Source: Paucibacter sp. DJ2R-2 (GTDB taxonomy: Bacteria > Pseudomonadota > Gammaproteobacteria > Burkholderiales > Burkholderiaceae_C). From it: DNA of 64,000 nt. Under the pieces are notes generated by a model. It saw only the letters and a program-made list of their open reading frames with translations. It was not told where the DNA came from and ran no database searches. Each line of letters starts with the position of its first letter. Positions within the stretch are counted from its first letter, which is position 1. Shown piece by piece: positions 42,604 through 51,849 of the stretch. Made by a program: the position numbers and the translations under genes. The DNA is taken from assembly GCF_025717675.1 (NCBI RefSeq), contig NZ_JAJIRT010000001.1, positions 868,001 to 932,000 on the forward strand, read 5' to 3'.

Positions 42604-42635
42604 CCAAAAAAGAAATGCGCCCGAAGGCGCATTGA
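42604..42635 (-). terminator. Intrinsic terminator of the PEP-CTERM gene
   Basis: An 8-bp stem, AATGCGCC / GGCGCATT, with loop CGAA at 42614-42633. In the - strand transcript it is followed by a run of six U residues, 20 nt after the PEP-CTERM stop codon. It also separates that gene from the M20 peptidase. Confidence 0.85.
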
Positions 42636-42654: not shown

Positions 42655-43224
42655 TCAGGCGGGCTGACGACGGCGCCAAGCCACCAGTCCGGCCAGACCA
42701 GCGGCCAGCATCAGATAGGTCGAGGGCTCCGGCACGGCAGCGACGGTGTCCAGGGTGCGGCCGTTGAGCTGCACGGTGATGTCACCCAGGTTCGAATTCA
42801 GGAACAGGGCATCCGCAAACGACAAGGCACTGCTGCCGACGCTGTTGACGGAGAAGTTGATCCGGGCCAGCACACCGCTGCCGTTGGCGCCGGCGACATT
42901 GCCGATCAAGGTGTTGTTGAGGAAGCTGATCTGACCCGCGGCGTTGTCGATCACGCCGGCGTCGGCAAAGGTATTGCCCGCCGTACCCAAGAAGGCGCCT
43001 TCGCTGACGCCGGTGACTTGCAGGATGGCCGGATTGAAGTTCAGGCTGAACTGGTAGGCGTAAAGATCGCTGATGCCCGAAATCAGGACATCCAGGCTCA
43101 GGTTCGTGCCGACCACAGCCGGGTCCGGCTGCGCCACCAGGGTCACCGCAGGGTCAGCCCAGGCTTGCGACGCCAGAGCGCCCAAGAGCAGCGCGGCGGC
43201 AATGTTTTTCTTCTTCAACATCAT
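42655..43224 (-). CDS. Cohesin-like domain protein with PEP-CTERM sorting signal
   Basis: A 189-residue exported protein. It has a signal peptide (residues 1-22, ending SQAWA), a single beta-sandwich of about 130 residues with cohesin-type features (DVLISGISDLYAYQFSLNF, NPAILQVTGVSEGAFLG, SGVLARINFSV), and the C-terminal sorting signal VPEPST, hydrophobic helix and WRRR tail. PEP-CTERM proteins are processed by exosortase and released to or held at the surface; the exosortase is not in this window. The ATG at 43224 has AGGAG at 8-nt spacing. A dockerin-bearing protease is encoded about 900 nt away on the other strand. Confidence 0.88.
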   Translation of the reverse strand: MMLKKKNIAAALLLGALASQAWADPAVTLVAQPDPAVVGTNLSLDVLISGISDLYAYQFSLNFNPAILQVTGVSEGAFLGTAGNTFADAGVIDNAAGQISFLNNTLIGNVAGANGSGVLARINFSVNSVGSSALSFADALFLNSNLGDITVQLNGRTLDTVAAVPEPSTYLMLAAGLAGLVAWRRRQPA

Positions 43225-43414
43225 GACGATTTCTCCTCTGCCCTGAAGGCAATACATCCAAGCACGTGGTCTTGCGGCACCTGGCTCAGCAAACCCCGCA
43301 TGGACCTGAATCTGGCTCACAGATCGTGACGTATTTCGTGATCAGCAGTCTTTCATCAGCCACGATGCGGCGATACGGGGGGATTCCCCAGCTCTTGGCC
43401 ACCCTCCCCCTGTT

Positions 43415-43924
43415 TCAAGGCTCAGGGTTGAAGCGCAGCCGGGCTTGCAAGTCCGCCACGGCCGCGTCCAGGACCGCCAGCGCCTCCGGGCCGCAACCCC
43501 CTCGACGGAACACCTGCTTGACCTCGCCGTCGCGCTCGACCTGCCAATTGACCCAGGCGCCATCGCGCATCTCGGGGTCGTCATAGCTCTCGGCCATGGC
43601 AAAGAAGCCTTGCGCCTGCAGCAAGGCGGCCAGGGCCTCGAAGTCCGGCAGTGCCAATCTGGCACGCGAACGCTGATCCTGCGTGCCATGCCGGGCCTTG
43701 CCGCTCAGAGTCAGGAAGGCTGTGCCATTGCGGTGCAGGCTCAGGCGGCTGCTGTTCGCACAACCAAAACAATCGCGCTCCACGGTGACCACCTGAATGA
43801 GGGGGGTCGACCCGGCCGACCGGGGCTCGCCTGCCTGCGCCGAGCCACCCGCACTGAAGCCGCAAGACAGGGCCAACAGCCAAGCACGCCAGGGCTTACC
43901 CGGCTTGTCTATGGCGGTACTCAT
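43415..43924 (-). CDS. Exported DUF6438 domain protein
   Basis: A 169-residue protein with a probable signal peptide (about 1-31, ending GSAQA) and a DUF6438-like region: VVTVERDCFGCANSSRLSL with two cysteines, then the glycine strand NGTAFLTLSGKA and the LPDFEALAALLQAQGFF helix, and a third pair around RRGGCGPEAL. The domain's function is unknown. No enzyme motif is seen. It lies between the PEP-CTERM gene (same strand, 190 nt away) and the divergent protease gene, so it may belong to the same surface module (inference). Confidence 0.75.
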   Translation of the reverse strand: MSTAIDKPGKPWRAWLLALSCGFSAGGSAQAGEPRSAGSTPLIQVVTVERDCFGCANSSRLSLHRNGTAFLTLSGKARHGTQDQRSRARLALPDFEALAALLQAQGFFAMAESYDDPEMRDGAWVNWQVERDGEVKQVFRRGGCGPEALAVLDAAVADLQARLRFNPEP

Positions 43925-44097
43925 GAGGATTGACCCTCTATACAGGGTAAAGATTTGTCATCTATCTTCGTGCACTTGTTCACAGGCAGTCGCATGTCTG
44001 GTCCTCGGAAATCCAGCGTTACTGATTTTCAAGGCCGCCCGCTGTGACGCAGCGCCTCAAAGAACCCCAGCCAGTTTGCCCCGGAAAAGGACACTTC

Positions 44098-47000
44098 ATG
44101 AAACAGCATTCGTCTGCCCAAGGCCGCGCCACTTCCAAAACCGCAGTGCGCGACCTGCAGCGCCACGCCAGCAGCCTGCTTGTGCTGAGCATGGCCCTGG
44201 CTGGCACCATTGCCTTGCCGGCCGCCCACGCCGCGACCCTCAACGCCACGGCCGCCGCTCAGCCGACCGGAGCTTTCTGGCAAGACACCAAGGCCACCAA
44301 GGCCAGTGTCTCCGCCAAGGGTGCCATCGCCGCCGTTCAGCCGCGCAAGTACCGAGCCACCACCCTGGACCGCCTGGGCCTGAGCGCCTTTGCCGCCAAC
44401 GCTCCCCTGGAGCGTACGGCCGCTGCCCAACTGAGCCCGTTGACCATCTCCCTGCCCCATCCCGATGGCGGCTACCAGCGTTTCGCCATGGTCGAGTCGC
44501 CGGTGATGGAGCAGGCCCTGGCCGACAAGCACCCCGAAATCAAGACCTATGCCGGCAAGGGCATCGACGACCCCAATGCCAGCGTGCGCATGGACATCAC
44601 GCCGCAGGGCTTCCACGCCTCGGTGCGCTCACCCAAGGGTGCTTGGTACATCGACCCCTACTTCCACCTCGATGACAGCCTCTACGCCAGCTACCACGGC
44701 CGTGACCTGCCCAACCAGCATGGCACGCTGCGCGAACCGCTGCTGAATGAAGCCCACATCGACCTGACACGCGGCTTCTACCACGCCGCCGATGCTGTGG
44801 AAGTGCGCGGCTTCGGCTTCGTGCCGGGCGCCACCGTGACCATCACCGTACGCAACCCCGAAACCGACAGCAGCGCCCGCCAGACCGTGACCACGGTGGC
44901 CGACCAGGACGGCACCGTGAGCACCTCGGTGCAAGCCGATCCTTCGCGCAACCTCGGCGCCTACGAAGTCAGCGCCAGCGACGGAAACACCACCGCCACC
45001 GCCGCCTACCACGTGGTGGATGATTCGCAAAGCCCCACGGCCGCCTCGGGCACCCAGCTGCGCACCTACCGCCTGGCCTTGCTGTCCGACCCCGGTTATG
45101 CCAACTTCCACGGCGCGGCCAATGTGACGGCGGCCAAGGTCACGCTGATCAACCGCGTCACGCAAGTTTACGAAGACGAGACAGCGATCCGTCTGGTGCT
45201 GGTCGCCAACAACGATGCGCTGAACCTGAACACCGCAGCGCAGTTCTCCGGAGCCAACGGCCCCTGCGGCGGCACGGCCTGCTTCCCTACTGCCAGCGTC
45301 AGCTGCAGCTCGGCCACCTTGACTCGCACCCGGCAGGTCATCGGTCTGCTCGTGGGCGCCAGCAACTTTGACATCGGCCACATCGGCGTCGGCGCCGGTG
45401 GTGGTGGCATCGCCAGCCTCGGCGTGGTCGGCGGCAGCGCCAAGGCCCAGGGTTGCACGGGTCTGCCCACGCCCGTGGGCGACCTGTTCGCCGTGGACTA
45501 TGTGGCTCACGAAATGGGCCACCAGTTCGCCGGCAATCACACCTTCAACGGCGTGAGCGGCAGCTGCACCGGCGGCAACCGCAACCCAGGCACCTCGGTG
45601 GAGCCGGGCTCCGGTTCGTCCATCATGGCCTATGCCGGCATCTGCAGCACCGACGATCTGCAGCCGCACAGCGACGCTTACTGGTCGCAGCGCAGCTTCG
45701 ATGAAATCATGGCCTACACAACAGGCGCAGAAACCTTGATCAACGAAGTGCAGATGGGCGTGCTCAAGGGCTTCAACACCAACGGCCAGCAGTTCCAGCT
45801 GAGCTACGCCGGCAGTGACTCGGCACCGATCGTGCGTGGCACCAACTTCACCACGGCCGGCATCAAGGCCGCGCTGGAAGCTCTGCCCAGCTGGACCGCG
45901 GGCGGCACCGTCACCGTCAGCGCCCTGACCGACACCGCCTTCACCCTGACCTTCAGCGGCACCCTTGCCGGCACCAACCTTGACAAGGTGCAACTGGTCA
46001 ATGCGTCCGCCGGTGTCGAGGGTTATATCGGCGAAATCGCCGCTGGCGGCTCGACCACCCGCCGCGGCAGCACCTTCAGCGCCACCGGCAACACCGCACC
46101 GACCGTGACCGCCCCCACCGGCTACACCATCCCGGTACGCACGCCCTTCGCCCTGACCGGCAGCGCCATCGATGCCGAAGGCGACACCCTGACCTATATG
46201 TGGGAGCAAAACGACCGCGGCGCCGCCACCGGCACCGGCCTGCTGACCAATGGCAAGACCAACGGTCCGCTGTTCCGACAATTCGGCCTGCGCGCCGTGG
46301 TCAGCGAAGCCGACACGGTCAAGTACAACTCGCCCGGCGAGAACATCGTGTCGAACAACCCGACCCGCGTGCTCCCGGACCTGGCGCAGATCCTGGCCAA
46401 CAACACCAATGCCGAGACCGGCGCTTGCCCGACGGTGTCCGGCACCGCCACGGCCGAACAGATCGACTGCTACTCGGAGTACCTGCCGACCGCAGCCTAC
46501 GTCGGCTTTGCAGGCACCAACGCCAGCCCGGCCTCGTTGAACTTCCGCCTGACGGCACGTGATGGCCGCGGCGGTGTCAACAGCGCCAACACGCAGCTGG
46601 TGCTGGCCCCGAACGCCGGCCCCTTCCTGGTGACCTGGCCCAACAGCGCCCTGGTGCTGAACAGCGGCACGGCCTACACCGTGACCTGGAATGTCGCCAA
46701 CACCAATACGGCACCGGTCAACACCAGCCAGGTGAAGCTCAGCCTGTCCACCGATGGCGGCAACACCTTCCCCCACGTCCTGGCCGCCAGCGTACCCAAC
46801 AACGGCAGCGCCTCTGTGACCCTGCCGGTGCTGGCCGCCGACAAGGCCCGCATCAAGGTGGAAGCGGTCGACAACATCTTCTTTGACGTCTCGAATGCCG
46901 ACTTCAGCATCAAGCTCTACGGCGACGTCAACGGCGATGGCAGCATCAGCTGCGCCGATCTGTCCATCGTGCGCGCCTCCCTGGGCAAGCGCGCCGGCCA

Positions 47001-47109
47001 GCCGGGCTTTGACCCACGCGCCGATGTCAACGGCGACGGCGTGGTCGATATCCGCGACATGGCCGCCGTGTCCAAGAACGTGCCGGCCGCGAACACCTGC
47101 AACAAGTAA
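44098..47109 (+). CDS. Secreted reprolysin-like metalloprotease with C-terminal dockerin-like repeats
   Basis: A 1003-residue exported zinc protease. The N-terminal signal ends near residue 45 (LPAAHA). A propeptide-like region precedes the metzincin catalytic domain with HEMGHQFAGNH (His471, Glu472, His475, His481) and a Met-turn in SSIMAYAGIC, matching the reprolysin-like M12B group. Beta-rich accessory domains follow (about 560-930). The C-terminus has two calcium-loop repeats, DVNGDGSISCADLSIV (943) and DVNGDGVVDIRDMAAV (976), typical of type I dockerin. The ATG at 44098 has AAGGA with 7-nt spacing; a GTG at 44044 is less likely. A cohesin-like PEP-CTERM protein is encoded nearby. Confidence 0.92.
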   Translation: MKQHSSAQGRATSKTAVRDLQRHASSLLVLSMALAGTIALPAAHAATLNATAAAQPTGAFWQDTKATKASVSAKGAIAAVQPRKYRATTLDRLGLSAFAANAPLERTAAAQLSPLTISLPHPDGGYQRFAMVESPVMEQALADKHPEIKTYAGKGIDDPNASVRMDITPQGFHASVRSPKGAWYIDPYFHLDDSLYASYHGRDLPNQHGTLREPLLNEAHIDLTRGFYHAADAVEVRGFGFVPGATVTITVRNPETDSSARQTVTTVADQDGTVSTSVQADPSRNLGAYEVSASDGNTTATAAYHVVDDSQSPTAASGTQLRTYRLALLSDPGYANFHGAANVTAAKVTLINRVTQVYEDETAIRLVLVANNDALNLNTAAQFSGANGPCGGTACFPTASVSCSSATLTRTRQVIGLLVGASNFDIGHIGVGAGGGGIASLGVVGGSAKAQGCTGLPTPVGDLFAVDYVAHEMGHQFAGNHTFNGVSGSCTGGNRNPGTSVEPGSGSSIMAYAGICSTDDLQPHSDAYWSQRSFDEIMAYTTGAETLINEVQMGVLKGFNTNGQQFQLSYAGSDSAPIVRGTNFTTAGIKAALEALPSWTAGGTVTVSALTDTAFTLTFSGTLAGTNLDKVQLVNASAGVEGYIGEIAAGGSTTRRGSTFSATGNTAPTVTAPTGYTIPVRTPFALTGSAIDAEGDTLTYMWEQNDRGAATGTGLLTNGKTNGPLFRQFGLRAVVSEADTVKYNSPGENIVSNNPTRVLPDLAQILANNTNAETGACPTVSGTATAEQIDCYSEYLPTAAYVGFAGTNASPASLNFRLTARDGRGGVNSANTQLVLAPNAGPFLVTWPNSALVLNSGTAYTVTWNVANTNTAPVNTSQVKLSLSTDGGNTFPHVLAASVPNNGSASVTLPVLAADKARIKVEAVDNIFFDVSNADFSIKLYGDVNGDGSISCADLSIVRASLGKRAGQPGFDPRADVNGDGVVDIRDMAAVSKNVPAANTCNK

Positions 47110-49890: not shown

Positions 49891-51849
49891 ATGAAAACGA
49901 AGGTCTTCTCGATGCGCTTGTCGATCGTTTGCCTGGCTCTGACCCTGTCGCTCGGCCTCGCCCCGCGTGCCGCGTGTGCACAAAGCACCTCAGCCCCACC
50001 CACCGGTGCACCTGTGCCCGCAGCGGCCCCTGCGGCTTCGGCCGCGGCCAGCCTGCCGGCGGACGCCGCCTCTGCCCCAGACGGAGCTGCATCCGCGCCG
50101 GCCGCCCCTCCGCCGCCCCCGCCACCAAGCTGTTCTTCGCTGACCGCCAAGGCCATGAGCAGCGACCTGCGCGCCGCCACCGCTCAAGCCCAGAACAAGC
50201 CCCTGGAAGAGCTGGCCCGAGCCTATGAGGAGGCTGTCTCCCTCTGGACCCAGGCCACGGGCGGCTGCACCGGCCGCGCTCAGGAACGCGCCCAGCGCGC
50301 TCTCGGTGACAACGAGCGCCAGCGGGCCGCCGTGGCCGAGCGCATGGCGGCTGGCTCGCAGTGCGAGCTTTCGCACCGCGATGCGGCCTCTCTGCAGGAA
50401 CTGGCTGCCAAGGCTTTTGGCGAGCGCCGCTTTGGCGATGCGGCCTCGCTCTACAGCAAGGCCGAAACCATGTGGGATCTGGCCGCCGAGCATTGCACCG
50501 GCAGCCAACAACAGATCGCCTTGCGGCGCCGCGAGCAGACCGAGATCGACGCCCACAACGCCGAGTTCTGCGCCCCTATCTTCGAAAAGGCGCGCGAGTT
50601 CGCGCAGAAGTTTCGCACCGCCGCACCGGGCCTCAATCCGACCGAGCGCCAGGCTCAGTCCATGATTGCCGAGACCGCCTGGCGGCGCGCCGCCACACTG
50701 TGCAAGGACGCCGCCCTCGAGAACGCCAACAGCTTCATTCAGACCCTGGCACGCGAGCGCGGCACCCCCTGGACCGCCGTGCCTTTGCCGGAAAGCTTTC
50801 AGGCGGTTATGCCCAAGCCGCCGGCGCCACGGCCCACCGCGGCCGCCAGCGCGCCCGGCGCGACGGCCAAAACGGCAGGCGCAACAACGGGAGCGGCGGG
50901 AGCAAGCGTGGCAGCAGCAGCAGCAACAACGGCTGCTGCGGCAGGTGCGACGGCCGGCGCGAAAGCCACCGGCGATACCGCGGCGAGTGGTCTGGGCGCG
51001 CTCGTCAGCGGCGCCATCGGTGCAGTGAAGAGCGCCACGCAGACCACCGGCAACGAAGCCGCGGCGGCACGCAACAACAGCCAATCGCGAACGACGGCCG
51101 AGGAAGCACCCAAGGAGCCGCCCAAGGAGATGGACATTCGCGCCGGCGACACCCGCTACAAAGGCCAGTTCGTGCGCGAGGAGGGTCAGGTCGTGAGCGG
51201 CACCGGGCGGGTCGAATGGTCGAACGGCGATGTCTACATCGGCAGCCTGGTGCGCAGCGTGCGCCAGGGCAAGGGCGAATTCATCTGGGCCAATGGCCAG
51301 CGCTATGAAGGCGACTGGGTTGAGAACAAAGCAACTGGCCAGGGCAAGCTCAGCTTTGCCAATGGCAACCAGTACGAAGGCTCGCTGATCGACGGAAGCC
51401 CCGAAGGCAGCGGACAGCTCAGCTTCGCCAGCGGCGACGTCTACAAGGGCCAGGTCAGCCAGGGCATGCCCCACGGCAAGGGCTTGTACCGCTGGGCCAA
51501 TGGTCAACAGTACGAGGGCGACTATGTCCGCTCGGCACCACAAGGCCGAGGCATCCTGCGCTATGCCAACGGCAACCGCTTTGAGGGCAGCATCCAAGCG
51601 GGGCAACCCCATGGACAAGGCCGTATGGAGATGGCCTCGGGCGACCGCTACGAAGGCGACTTCCAACTTGGCAAGCCACATGGCCAGGGCAGCTATTTCT
51701 GGAAGAGCGGCGAGCGTTATGTCGGTGCTTGGGCGGGAGGCCTCAAGCACGGCGAAGGTGTGTTTCACTGGCCCAACGGCGACCGCTGGGAAGGTTTGTT
51801 CAAGGCCGACGAGCGCACTGAGGAAGGTGTGATACACCGAAAGGATTGA
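49891..51849 (+). CDS. Exported MORN-repeat protein
   Basis: A 652-residue protein with a signal peptide (cut near ACAQ, residue 31) and Ala/Pro-rich segments including a seven-proline run. Residues 80-300 are helical with paired cysteines, reminiscent of TPR-like packing. A second Ala/Thr-rich linker follows. Residues 423-645 hold about ten MORN repeats of 23 residues (pattern YEGxxxxGxxxGxGxxxxxxG). MORN repeats elsewhere bind membranes or act as protein scaffolds. It starts 2 nt after the PDZ-like lipoprotein, so the two probably form one periplasmic or outer-membrane assembly (inference). Confidence 0.88.
   Translation: MKTKVFSMRLSIVCLALTLSLGLAPRAACAQSTSAPPTGAPVPAAAPAASAAASLPADAASAPDGAASAPAAPPPPPPPSCSSLTAKAMSSDLRAATAQAQNKPLEELARAYEEAVSLWTQATGGCTGRAQERAQRALGDNERQRAAVAERMAAGSQCELSHRDAASLQELAAKAFGERRFGDAASLYSKAETMWDLAAEHCTGSQQQIALRRREQTEIDAHNAEFCAPIFEKAREFAQKFRTAAPGLNPTERQAQSMIAETAWRRAATLCKDAALENANSFIQTLARERGTPWTAVPLPESFQAVMPKPPAPRPTAAASAPGATAKTAGATTGAAGASVAAAAATTAAAAGATAGAKATGDTAASGLGALVSGAIGAVKSATQTTGNEAAAARNNSQSRTTAEEAPKEPPKEMDIRAGDTRYKGQFVREEGQVVSGTGRVEWSNGDVYIGSLVRSVRQGKGEFIWANGQRYEGDWVENKATGQGKLSFANGNQYEGSLIDGSPEGSGQLSFASGDVYKGQVSQGMPHGKGLYRWANGQQYEGDYVRSAPQGRGILRYANGNRFEGSIQAGQPHGQGRMEMASGDRYEGDFQLGKPHGQGSYFWKSGERYVGAWAGGLKHGEGVFHWPNGDRWEGLFKADERTEEGVIHRKD

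Follow-up and report, generated by a model that had tools for sequence, protein, structure and literature searches.

The DNA analysed herein, referred to throughout as the window, is a stretch of 64,000 nt from Paucibacter sp. DJ2R-2 (contig NZ_JAJIRT010000001.1, positions 868,001 to 932,000), and carries on opposite strands a gene for a small protein with one cohesin domain and a PEP-CTERM sorting signal and a gene for a secreted reprolysin-like metalloprotease with a dockerin tail (Table 1). An original prediction, made from the sequence, had described the first as a small exported protein of just this composition, and Pfam profile scans bear it out, with scores of 51.8 bits for cohesin (PF00963; curated cut-off 24.1) and 33.3 bits for PEP-CTERM (PF07589; cut-off 20.7) alongside a signal peptide judged by eye. 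The open reading frame (ORF) as listed, 42655-43320(-), encodes 221 aa from GTG 43320; the gene likely starts at ATG 43224, upstream of which is a GAGGAG sequence.

The protease ORF spans 44044-47109(+), with its 1003 aa counted from ATG 44098. Membership of the M12B family is indicated by a Reprolysin_2 score of 108.5 bits against a cut-off of 27 and by the zinc site HEMGHQFAGNH. In the Pfam scan of the window its C-terminal Dockerin_1 domain (PF00404) scores 43.5 bits against a cut-off of 22.9, with DVNGDGSISCAD and DVNGDGVVDIRD as calcium loops, and among solved structures 2y3n_B is closest to it in sequence (6.9e-10); the 1003-residue secreted protease ending in two dockerin loops was hence recovered as described. 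The gap between the cohesin and protease genes, put at about 900 nt, measures approximately 0.87 kb.

Table 1. Features of the cohesin-dockerin locus, with positions numbered from the first nucleotide of the window.
Feature	Position	Strand	Remarks
PEP-CTERM cohesin gene (socket)	42655..43224	-	189 aa, start ATG 43224; Pfam scan
Cohesin protein signal peptide	43156..43224	-	judged by eye, ends SQAWA
Cohesin domain PF00963	42775..43116	-	residues 69-182 of the 221-aa ORF; 51.8 bits
PEP-CTERM sorting signal PF07589	42667..42738	-	Pfam profile match
Secreted reprolysin-like (M12B) metalloprotease with dockerin tail	44098..47109	+	1003 aa; Pfam scan
Reprolysin_2 catalytic domain with HExxHxxGxxH	45118..45675	+	108.5 bits
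Type I dockerin (plug) PF00404	46918..47079	+	two calcium loops, ORF residues 959-1012
DUF6438-like small protein	43415..43924	-	signal-peptide-like start by eye; upstream of cohesin gene, same strand
Divergent intergenic stretch, DUF6438-cohesin genes versus protease gene	43925..44097	.	sequence
Terminator-like stem-loop and T run	42614..42633	-	directly 3' of cohesin gene; consensus match only

The source genome (5.8 Mb in 47 contigs) contains one cohesin match over the Pfam cut-off, that of the window, and one weak match on contig C5, together with three dockerin matches at E-values up to 1 (window, C5 and C12). Measured between domains, 3.8 kb separates the sole over-cut-off cohesin from the strongest dockerin, that of the window, which scores 49.3 bits in the whole-genome search. 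On C5, the dockerin (14.9 bits alone and 22.9 when summed with its neighbours in frame, only then passing the cut-off) tails a cargo that is beta-propeller-like by eye and in which Pfam names no domain. The weak cohesin is encoded directly downstream; its protein also ends in a PEP-CTERM tail, and it scores 142 bits on a profile built from relatives, of which the C5 and window cohesins are both rows. The weak C12 dockerin (16.6 bits) ends a phospholipase C-like protein and is directly followed by a PEP-CTERM protein in which Pfam shows the PEP-CTERM motif only. The latter has a weak cohesin-profile score of 11.5 bits, which ranks second among 48 frames (47 PEP-like ones at the best 30 PEP-CTERM loci plus the C12 frame), with the window cohesin, itself a profile row, at 151 and the remaining frames listed at 4.5 or less. 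All three dockerins thereby neighbour a PEP-CTERM protein, two of them in clear pairs, with the C12 example likely representing a third. Chance neighbourhood was rejected as an account of this arrangement: of 77 PEP-CTERM matches in the genome (75 over cut-off), the best 30 loci were checked and a dockerin ORF lies within approximately 1.5 kb of none, although the window pair itself is wider apart.

With regard to relatives, 150 family genomes, 399 order genomes and 398 phylum genomes were surveyed, in draws that overlap. A dockerin gene adjoins 29 of the 35 small cohesins examined in the three surveys, those beside the cohesins of genomes G203, G181 (contig C17) and G143 (C1) being visible only with a custom dockerin profile. 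The family survey returned 33 matches to PF00963 in 24 genomes, 14 of which were classed as small cohesins on the strength of a PEP-CTERM-like tail, or PEP-CTERM itself, and a frame of <400 aa (or a gene of short length embedded in a longer frame); 13 of these have a dockerin gene within 4 kb (the exception is in G056), including one that lies within a long frame, beside a dockerin ORF (G143:C1:1037907). The family dockerin table used comprised 56 rows and one source-genome row, the weakest rows, none of them on a cohesin-bearing contig, having been omitted. Three of the other 19 family matches share one ORF with a dockerin, and 16 have no listed dockerin within 20 kb. A frame of 477 aa in G086, which matches cohesin weakly and whose tail resembles those of the small cohesins, was left uncounted; no dockerin is present in the 2.3 kb examined. 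For the order survey, in which up to 10 candidates per genome were scored, cohesin profile A2 gave at least 60 matches, at least 17 of them in frames of <400 aa, two being the source genome's own; 14 of the 15 new small cohesins were examined (G444 was left out) and a dockerin gene stands beside nine. The phylum survey gave 11 small cohesins, of which seven were new; these belong to two further families (f53 and f62) within the same class. All seven directly follow a dockerin-ended ORF, and some of their tails are PEP-CTERM variants.

A scan of the species-genome collection, using seven cohesins of the window type as queries (one peptide pattern), produced 56 loci, amongst which the source genome, which the scan may leave out, does not feature. 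By custom profiles, a dockerin ORF is accompanied by a cohesin ORF or domain in 53 of the 56; following removal of three Poribacteria loci with a different layout (L246, L248 and L249), both are held by 51 of 53, and the two misses (L237 and L238) sit on contigs of 5.5 and 4.5 kb. The loci are mostly from Burkholderiales (Roseateles, Paucibacter, Rubrivivax, Massilia, Duganella, Rugamonas, Pelomonas and others), with L245 and L247 belonging to Acidobacteria-type bins and L229 assigned to Methylomirabilota, all three being metagenome-assembled.

Linkage to a dockerin does not extend to cohesin matches in general, an idea that was rejected since a dockerin ORF within approximately 1.5 kb was found at none of the 28 cohesin loci of secretin size (8 from the family survey, 20 from the order survey), two of which (L012 and L031) are secretins by Pfam and the other 26 by size and motif only. 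Order secretins carry a C-terminal cohesin domain, as in L012 (1-1887, G028; Secretin 138 bits, Cohesin 39.9 bits) and L031 (G066). By eye, L029 and L030 are reductase-like and thus false cohesin matches. A number of other arrangements were also encountered. Cohesin and dockerin occur in one protein at G082:C33:272070-272591, G069:C176:31997-32506 and G051:C67:1636-2751, in ORFs of which two are very long (7160 and 8437 aa) and one is of 992 aa, and which could permit head-to-tail self-assembly. Genome G398 encodes very similar cohesin proteins on C6 (L181, beside a dockerin-bearing RHS-repeat ORF) and C25 (L271), as well as several additional cohesin and dockerin matches. In G013 (L157:9317-10513) and G077 (L186:9321-10295), a weak cohesin-like protein in a frame of 325-399 aa lies 1.4-1.5 kb from a 613-aa dockerin protein, with the PEP-CTERM match slightly under the cut-off in one of the two.

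The pairing is observed to persist through changes of cargo and through rearrangement. Three gene orders occur: divergent with a DUF6438 gene between, cargo then cohesin, and cohesin then cargo. The divergent layout of the window recurs in Roseateles, Paucibacter, Rubrivivax and similar genera, protease and cohesin stand in tandem in Massilia, Duganella and others, and the cohesin gene comes first in both scanned glycoside hydrolase family 10 (GH10) loci that have a cohesin (L161 and L162). A reprolysin is the cargo of a window-type dockerin beside a window-type cohesin in the window, G013, G204, L194 and L212. Elsewhere such pairs serve GH10 enzymes (G069 and G078), an M20 peptidase (G094), a GDSL lipase (L236), a VWA7-like protein (L234) and a PD40 propeller (L244), such that the cargo of window-type dockerins is unrelated whilst every scanned case sits beside a window-type cohesin, with a GH10 gene of G119 as the by-eye exception. 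Pairs of other classes add C25 peptidases, a metallo-beta-lactamase-fold protein, a metallophosphatase, a GDSL lipase and a sorbosone-dehydrogenase-like protein, along with an IgGFc-binding-domain protein, proteins with cadherin/PKD-type repeats and propeller-like proteins. Because many cargo types carry the dockerin, the logic of the pairing is not specific to proteases, a point on which it departs from the original prediction.

When 76 pairs were clustered, with four clusters each for cohesins and dockerins, the cohesin/dockerin combinations were 3/1 (51 pairs), 2/3 (15), 1/2 (3), 4/1 (6) and 4/4 (1). The match between cohesin and dockerin classes is close and incomplete, the C25-type class sharing its dockerin cluster with the window class. 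In the source genome, G078 and G853, each module is closer to its own class elsewhere than to its genome mate; the two pairs of G007 belong to one class. Within the window class, the dockerins have a conserved cysteine pattern: one cysteine of the window dockerin is in loop 1 and a second is near the protease C-terminus (46918-47106), and two such cysteines, at loop-1 position 10 and close to the C-terminus, are present in 50 of 51 window-type dockerins (the exception is L229). One might guess from this conservation at a disulfide clasp. Dockerins of the propeller class differ, several of them ending in C-x3-C-x4-C. Clostridial type I dockerins carry a Ser-Thr recognition pair at loop positions 10-11, which is not present in the window dockerin, where Cys-Ala and Ile-Arg occupy these positions; since the Ser-Thr pair marks one clostridial group and not the whole family, the specificity of the window dockerin need not be clostridial.

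The original prediction had proposed structure prediction as a check, and this was carried out on a relative, the Oxalobacteraceae strain locus L212, where dockerin and cohesin genes lie in one frame with a single stop between them. AlphaFold2 was given the dockerin-stop-cohesin stretch as a single chain of 265 residues with the stop read as glutamine, L212 being the modelled chain and the window cohesin protein a row of the alignment. In a baseline model with four dockerin rows the dockerin was unfolded, with a predicted template modelling score (pTM) of 0.56. With 70 rows both domains folded and pTM rose to 0.77, with values of the predicted local distance difference test (pLDDT) of 89-97 for the dockerin blocks, 85-98 for the cohesin blocks and 44-65 for the linker. 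By our own estimate, independent domains of such sizes would be expected to give a pTM of approximately 0.55; as 0.77 equals the ordered fraction of the chain, (65+140)/265, the model appears to fix with confidence the position of one domain against the other, and, read from pTM alone, the L212 dockerin and cohesin appear packed together. The modelled cohesin, which is 48 % identical to that of the window (alignment A7), matches 2xdh with Z 14.3 over 126 residues (1.8 Å, 19 % identity), followed by cellulosomal cohesins at Z of about 14, and through this model the jelly-roll cohesin fold is recognised. Searches of the model with Foldseek and VIA gave cohesins only among the matches listed, and barely tested the dockerin part.

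The gene between the two partners encodes a small protein whose placement was described correctly, with relatives at the same place elsewhere; its DUF6438 assignment is less secure, the match of 25.9 bits being below the Pfam cut-off of 30. A DUF6438-like gene separates protease and cohesin in all 15 divergent loci and was matched in no other locus of the 56-locus set. It may act as a secreted helper or inhibitor in the divergent version of the module.

We consider it probable that the enzyme with the dockerin tail is kept at the cell surface, or in exopolysaccharide, by the single cohesin encoded beside it, itself sorted by an exosortase. This reading draws on domains, gene pairing and exosortases that were all found: the cohesin protein has the signal peptide (by eye) and PEP-CTERM tail of an exosortase substrate, and the genome contains three exosortase matches over the cut-off, two of them above 240 bits. 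From these we infer binding, its calcium dependence, the specificity of the pair and its final location. The small cohesin protein would be exported through its signal peptide, an exosortase would recognise and process the PEP-CTERM tail, and the cohesin domain would thereby end up on the outer surface or in exopolysaccharide, whether attached or sorted there. The protease would be secreted separately and its C-terminal dockerin caught by the cohesin in a calcium-dependent manner, such that the captured enzyme would stay at the cell rather than diffusing off. The window pair would then exemplify a recurring module of two genes, one for a single-cohesin anchor and the other, beside it, for the dockerin-tailed cargo that the anchor serves, and several modules of different specificity class could coexist in one genome. 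In its broadest form, to which we lean only slightly, this would be a general, as yet undescribed enzyme-display device of Gram-negative bacteria with exosortases, in which PEP-CTERM cohesin sockets of orthogonal classes (protease/GH10, propeller, C25 and possibly more), working side by side in a single cell, each accept their own neighbour's plug only, and in which the units are passed between unrelated enzymes.

A number of results weigh against retention of the enzyme by its neighbour. Whilst small cohesins mostly accompany a dockerin, dockerin matches are often without a small cohesin: a separate neighbouring cohesin gene was found at 16 of 58 dockerin loci (family 12/30, order 4/28), within approximately 1.5 kb at nine family and three order loci and farther at three and one, respectively, such that the predicted co-occurrence in relatives holds from the side of the cohesins and only in part from that of the dockerins. 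Amongst pairs found via dockerins are those whose cohesin Pfam had missed (G034, G082, G133, G075 and the second in G007). Amongst the other 42 loci are giant ORFs, partial matches and genes, such as those of G119 and G053, whose dockerin tail has no anchor nearby. Small cohesins are absent from the 12-kb stretches examined around the dockerin genes L188 (G119, GH10), L187 (G053, S9/esterase), L190 (G034) and L193 (G177), and profile A2 found no convincing cohesin over the whole genomes of G119, whose GH10 dockerin is by eye of the window type, and G053. Six of the 35 small cohesins have no adjacent dockerin, namely that of G056 and, from the order survey, G369:C26, G398:C34, G398:C29, G181:C31 and G181:C35, the last two at loci that run off contig ends. 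A search of ten chosen genomes, outside this tally, gave two further pairs in G077 and one unpaired cohesin, G398:C25, with no dockerin in the 3.1 kb examined. The L212 model is a single read-through chain, and AlphaFold2 may be biased at the family level towards joining these modules, whichever dockerin and cohesin it is given. Mirror-tree analysis of the 76 pairs, before which survey-species repeats, near relatives and truncated sequences were dropped (L197, L223, L224, L225, L228, L233 and L247), correlated cohesin and dockerin distances with r 0.89, a value reached in none of 2000 permutations. Given cargo, the partial r is 0.23 (p 0.0012) over all window-type pairs (44 kept), and falls to 0.09 (p 0.12) for the protease pairs with HExGHQ (33, of which 32 were kept after near-duplicates). 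As the correlation in protease pairs vanishes given cargo, the mirror-tree value is not counted as proof of binding. Inter-protein mutual information over 51 window-type pairs was likewise at chance, with a maximum of 0.978 against a permutation maximum of 0.982 (60 permutations).

Results of this kind, in particular the absence of excess cohesin-dockerin signal in protease pairs, the negative mutual-information test and the 42 dockerin loci with no cohesin nearby, would suit a reading in which the genes are neighbours by co-inheritance and do not bind each other's products, the dockerin being a calcium-stabilised end cap and the cohesin binding something else; the matching of classes may indeed reflect co-inheritance alone. 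We regard this as improbable overall, since pairing is kept despite swaps of unrelated cargo and changed gene order, cohesin and dockerin are a known binding pair, and packing is predicted in L212. Less remote, if still rather unlikely, is that binding is real and serves a purpose other than surface retention, such as periplasmic or inner-membrane holding, partnership in maturation or secretion, or loading onto released exopolysaccharide. PEP-CTERM proteins have been tied to exopolysaccharide and floc formation in the parts available of the relevant accounts (Haft 2006, PMC1569441; PMC9850573), and DUF6438 is a conserved third partner at divergent loci. The cargo with named domains nonetheless consists mostly of hydrolases with very different catalytic domains, which display fits better than a dedicated maturation partner. 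The least credible alternative is a small cellulosome-type system, with several dockerin enzymes sharing cohesins. The modules are cellulosomal ones and GH10 enzymes are amongst the cargo; against this, there is one cohesin per protein and one over the cut-off in the genome, both clear dockerin genes have a cohesin of their own (the third likely so), the two clear pairs differ in class, and the cohesin protein contains no scaffoldin or carbohydrate-binding module by Pfam scan.

The proposed retention by a dedicated neighbour is distinct from cellulosome-like logic, which the original prediction had invoked and which does not describe the build seen here. Cellulosomes are anchored via an S-layer or sortase. 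The module families are the same as those of Clostridium/Acetivibrio cellulosomes, with the L212 cohesin model at Z of about 14 to solved cohesins and a two-loop Dockerin_1; in contrast to these, a single cohesin is sorted by the PEP-CTERM/exosortase route, each anchor has one neighbouring and mostly non-cellulolytic cargo, and there is no multi-cohesin scaffoldin, the whole genome having one single-domain cohesin over the cut-off. Nor are there many plant-cell-wall enzymes, the three dockerin matches of the genome being on protease, propeller-like and phospholipase C-like cargo. With one cohesin, no scaffoldin and few dockerins, the system is not a cellulosome. Non-cellulosomal cohesins and dockerins, from Archaeoglobus fulgidus and from glycoside hydrolases of Clostridium perfringens, were reportedly described by Peer et al. 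in 2009; we know of no coupling of these to exosortase sorting. Top structural matches of the L212 cohesin include 2xdh (A. fulgidus) and C. perfringens cohesins.

The nearest published idea is the hypothetical planctosome of freshwater Planctomycetes, which are non-cellulolytic; as set out in the sections available, it is a cohesin-dockerin assembly tethered outside the cell and including M12B reprolysin-like peptidases (PMC6461901, ISME J 2019). In that proposal a large lamin-tail-domain protein serves as anchor, together with an adaptor protein (PMC6461901), whereas here the anchor is a minimal PEP-CTERM cohesin encoded beside its cargo, in a module that spans many genera and many cargo types. 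Features shared with PEP-CTERM/exosortase sorting, as presented in the available part of Haft et al. 2006 (PMC1569441), are the N-terminal signal peptide, the C-terminal tail of PEP motif, transmembrane and basic segments, and an EpsH/exosortase in the genome; as a difference, the sorted protein here would be only an adaptor for a second, unsorted protein. Saccharophagus degradans is a Gram-negative bacterium with dockerin-like and cohesin-like ORFs for which a binding test was recommended, and the portion available of that account describes neither gene pairing nor a PEP-CTERM link (PMC2386152). Modules and sorting signal alike belong to known families; for their one-to-one combination, as for any joining of PEP-CTERM with cohesin or dockerin, no description was found amongst open-licence PubMed Central (PMC) papers.

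Terminator-like stem-loops, such as that directly 3' of the cohesin gene, number seven by consensus in the region against 4.4 expected, and no sigma-70-like promoter was found in the divergent stretch 43925..44097. An adjoining gene at 49891-51849 encodes a protein of 652 aa, apparently unrelated, in which eight MORN repeats are recognised (138.5 bits).

Outside cellulosomes, cohesins and dockerins occur in all domains of life with no known role, according to the available part of a published account (PMC5244752), and their repeated one-to-one pairing, with a sorting signal on the cohesin, offers a direct test of what that role may be. Some of the many PEP-CTERM proteins of a genome (77 matches in this one) might likewise be adaptors that bring other proteins to the surface. 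If the proposed display is true, it would supply new, possibly orthogonal cohesin-dockerin pairs for the engineering of Gram-negative surface display. For the organisms themselves, the repeated neighbourhood of cohesin and dockerin genes suggests a recurrent means of retaining enzymes at the cell surface.

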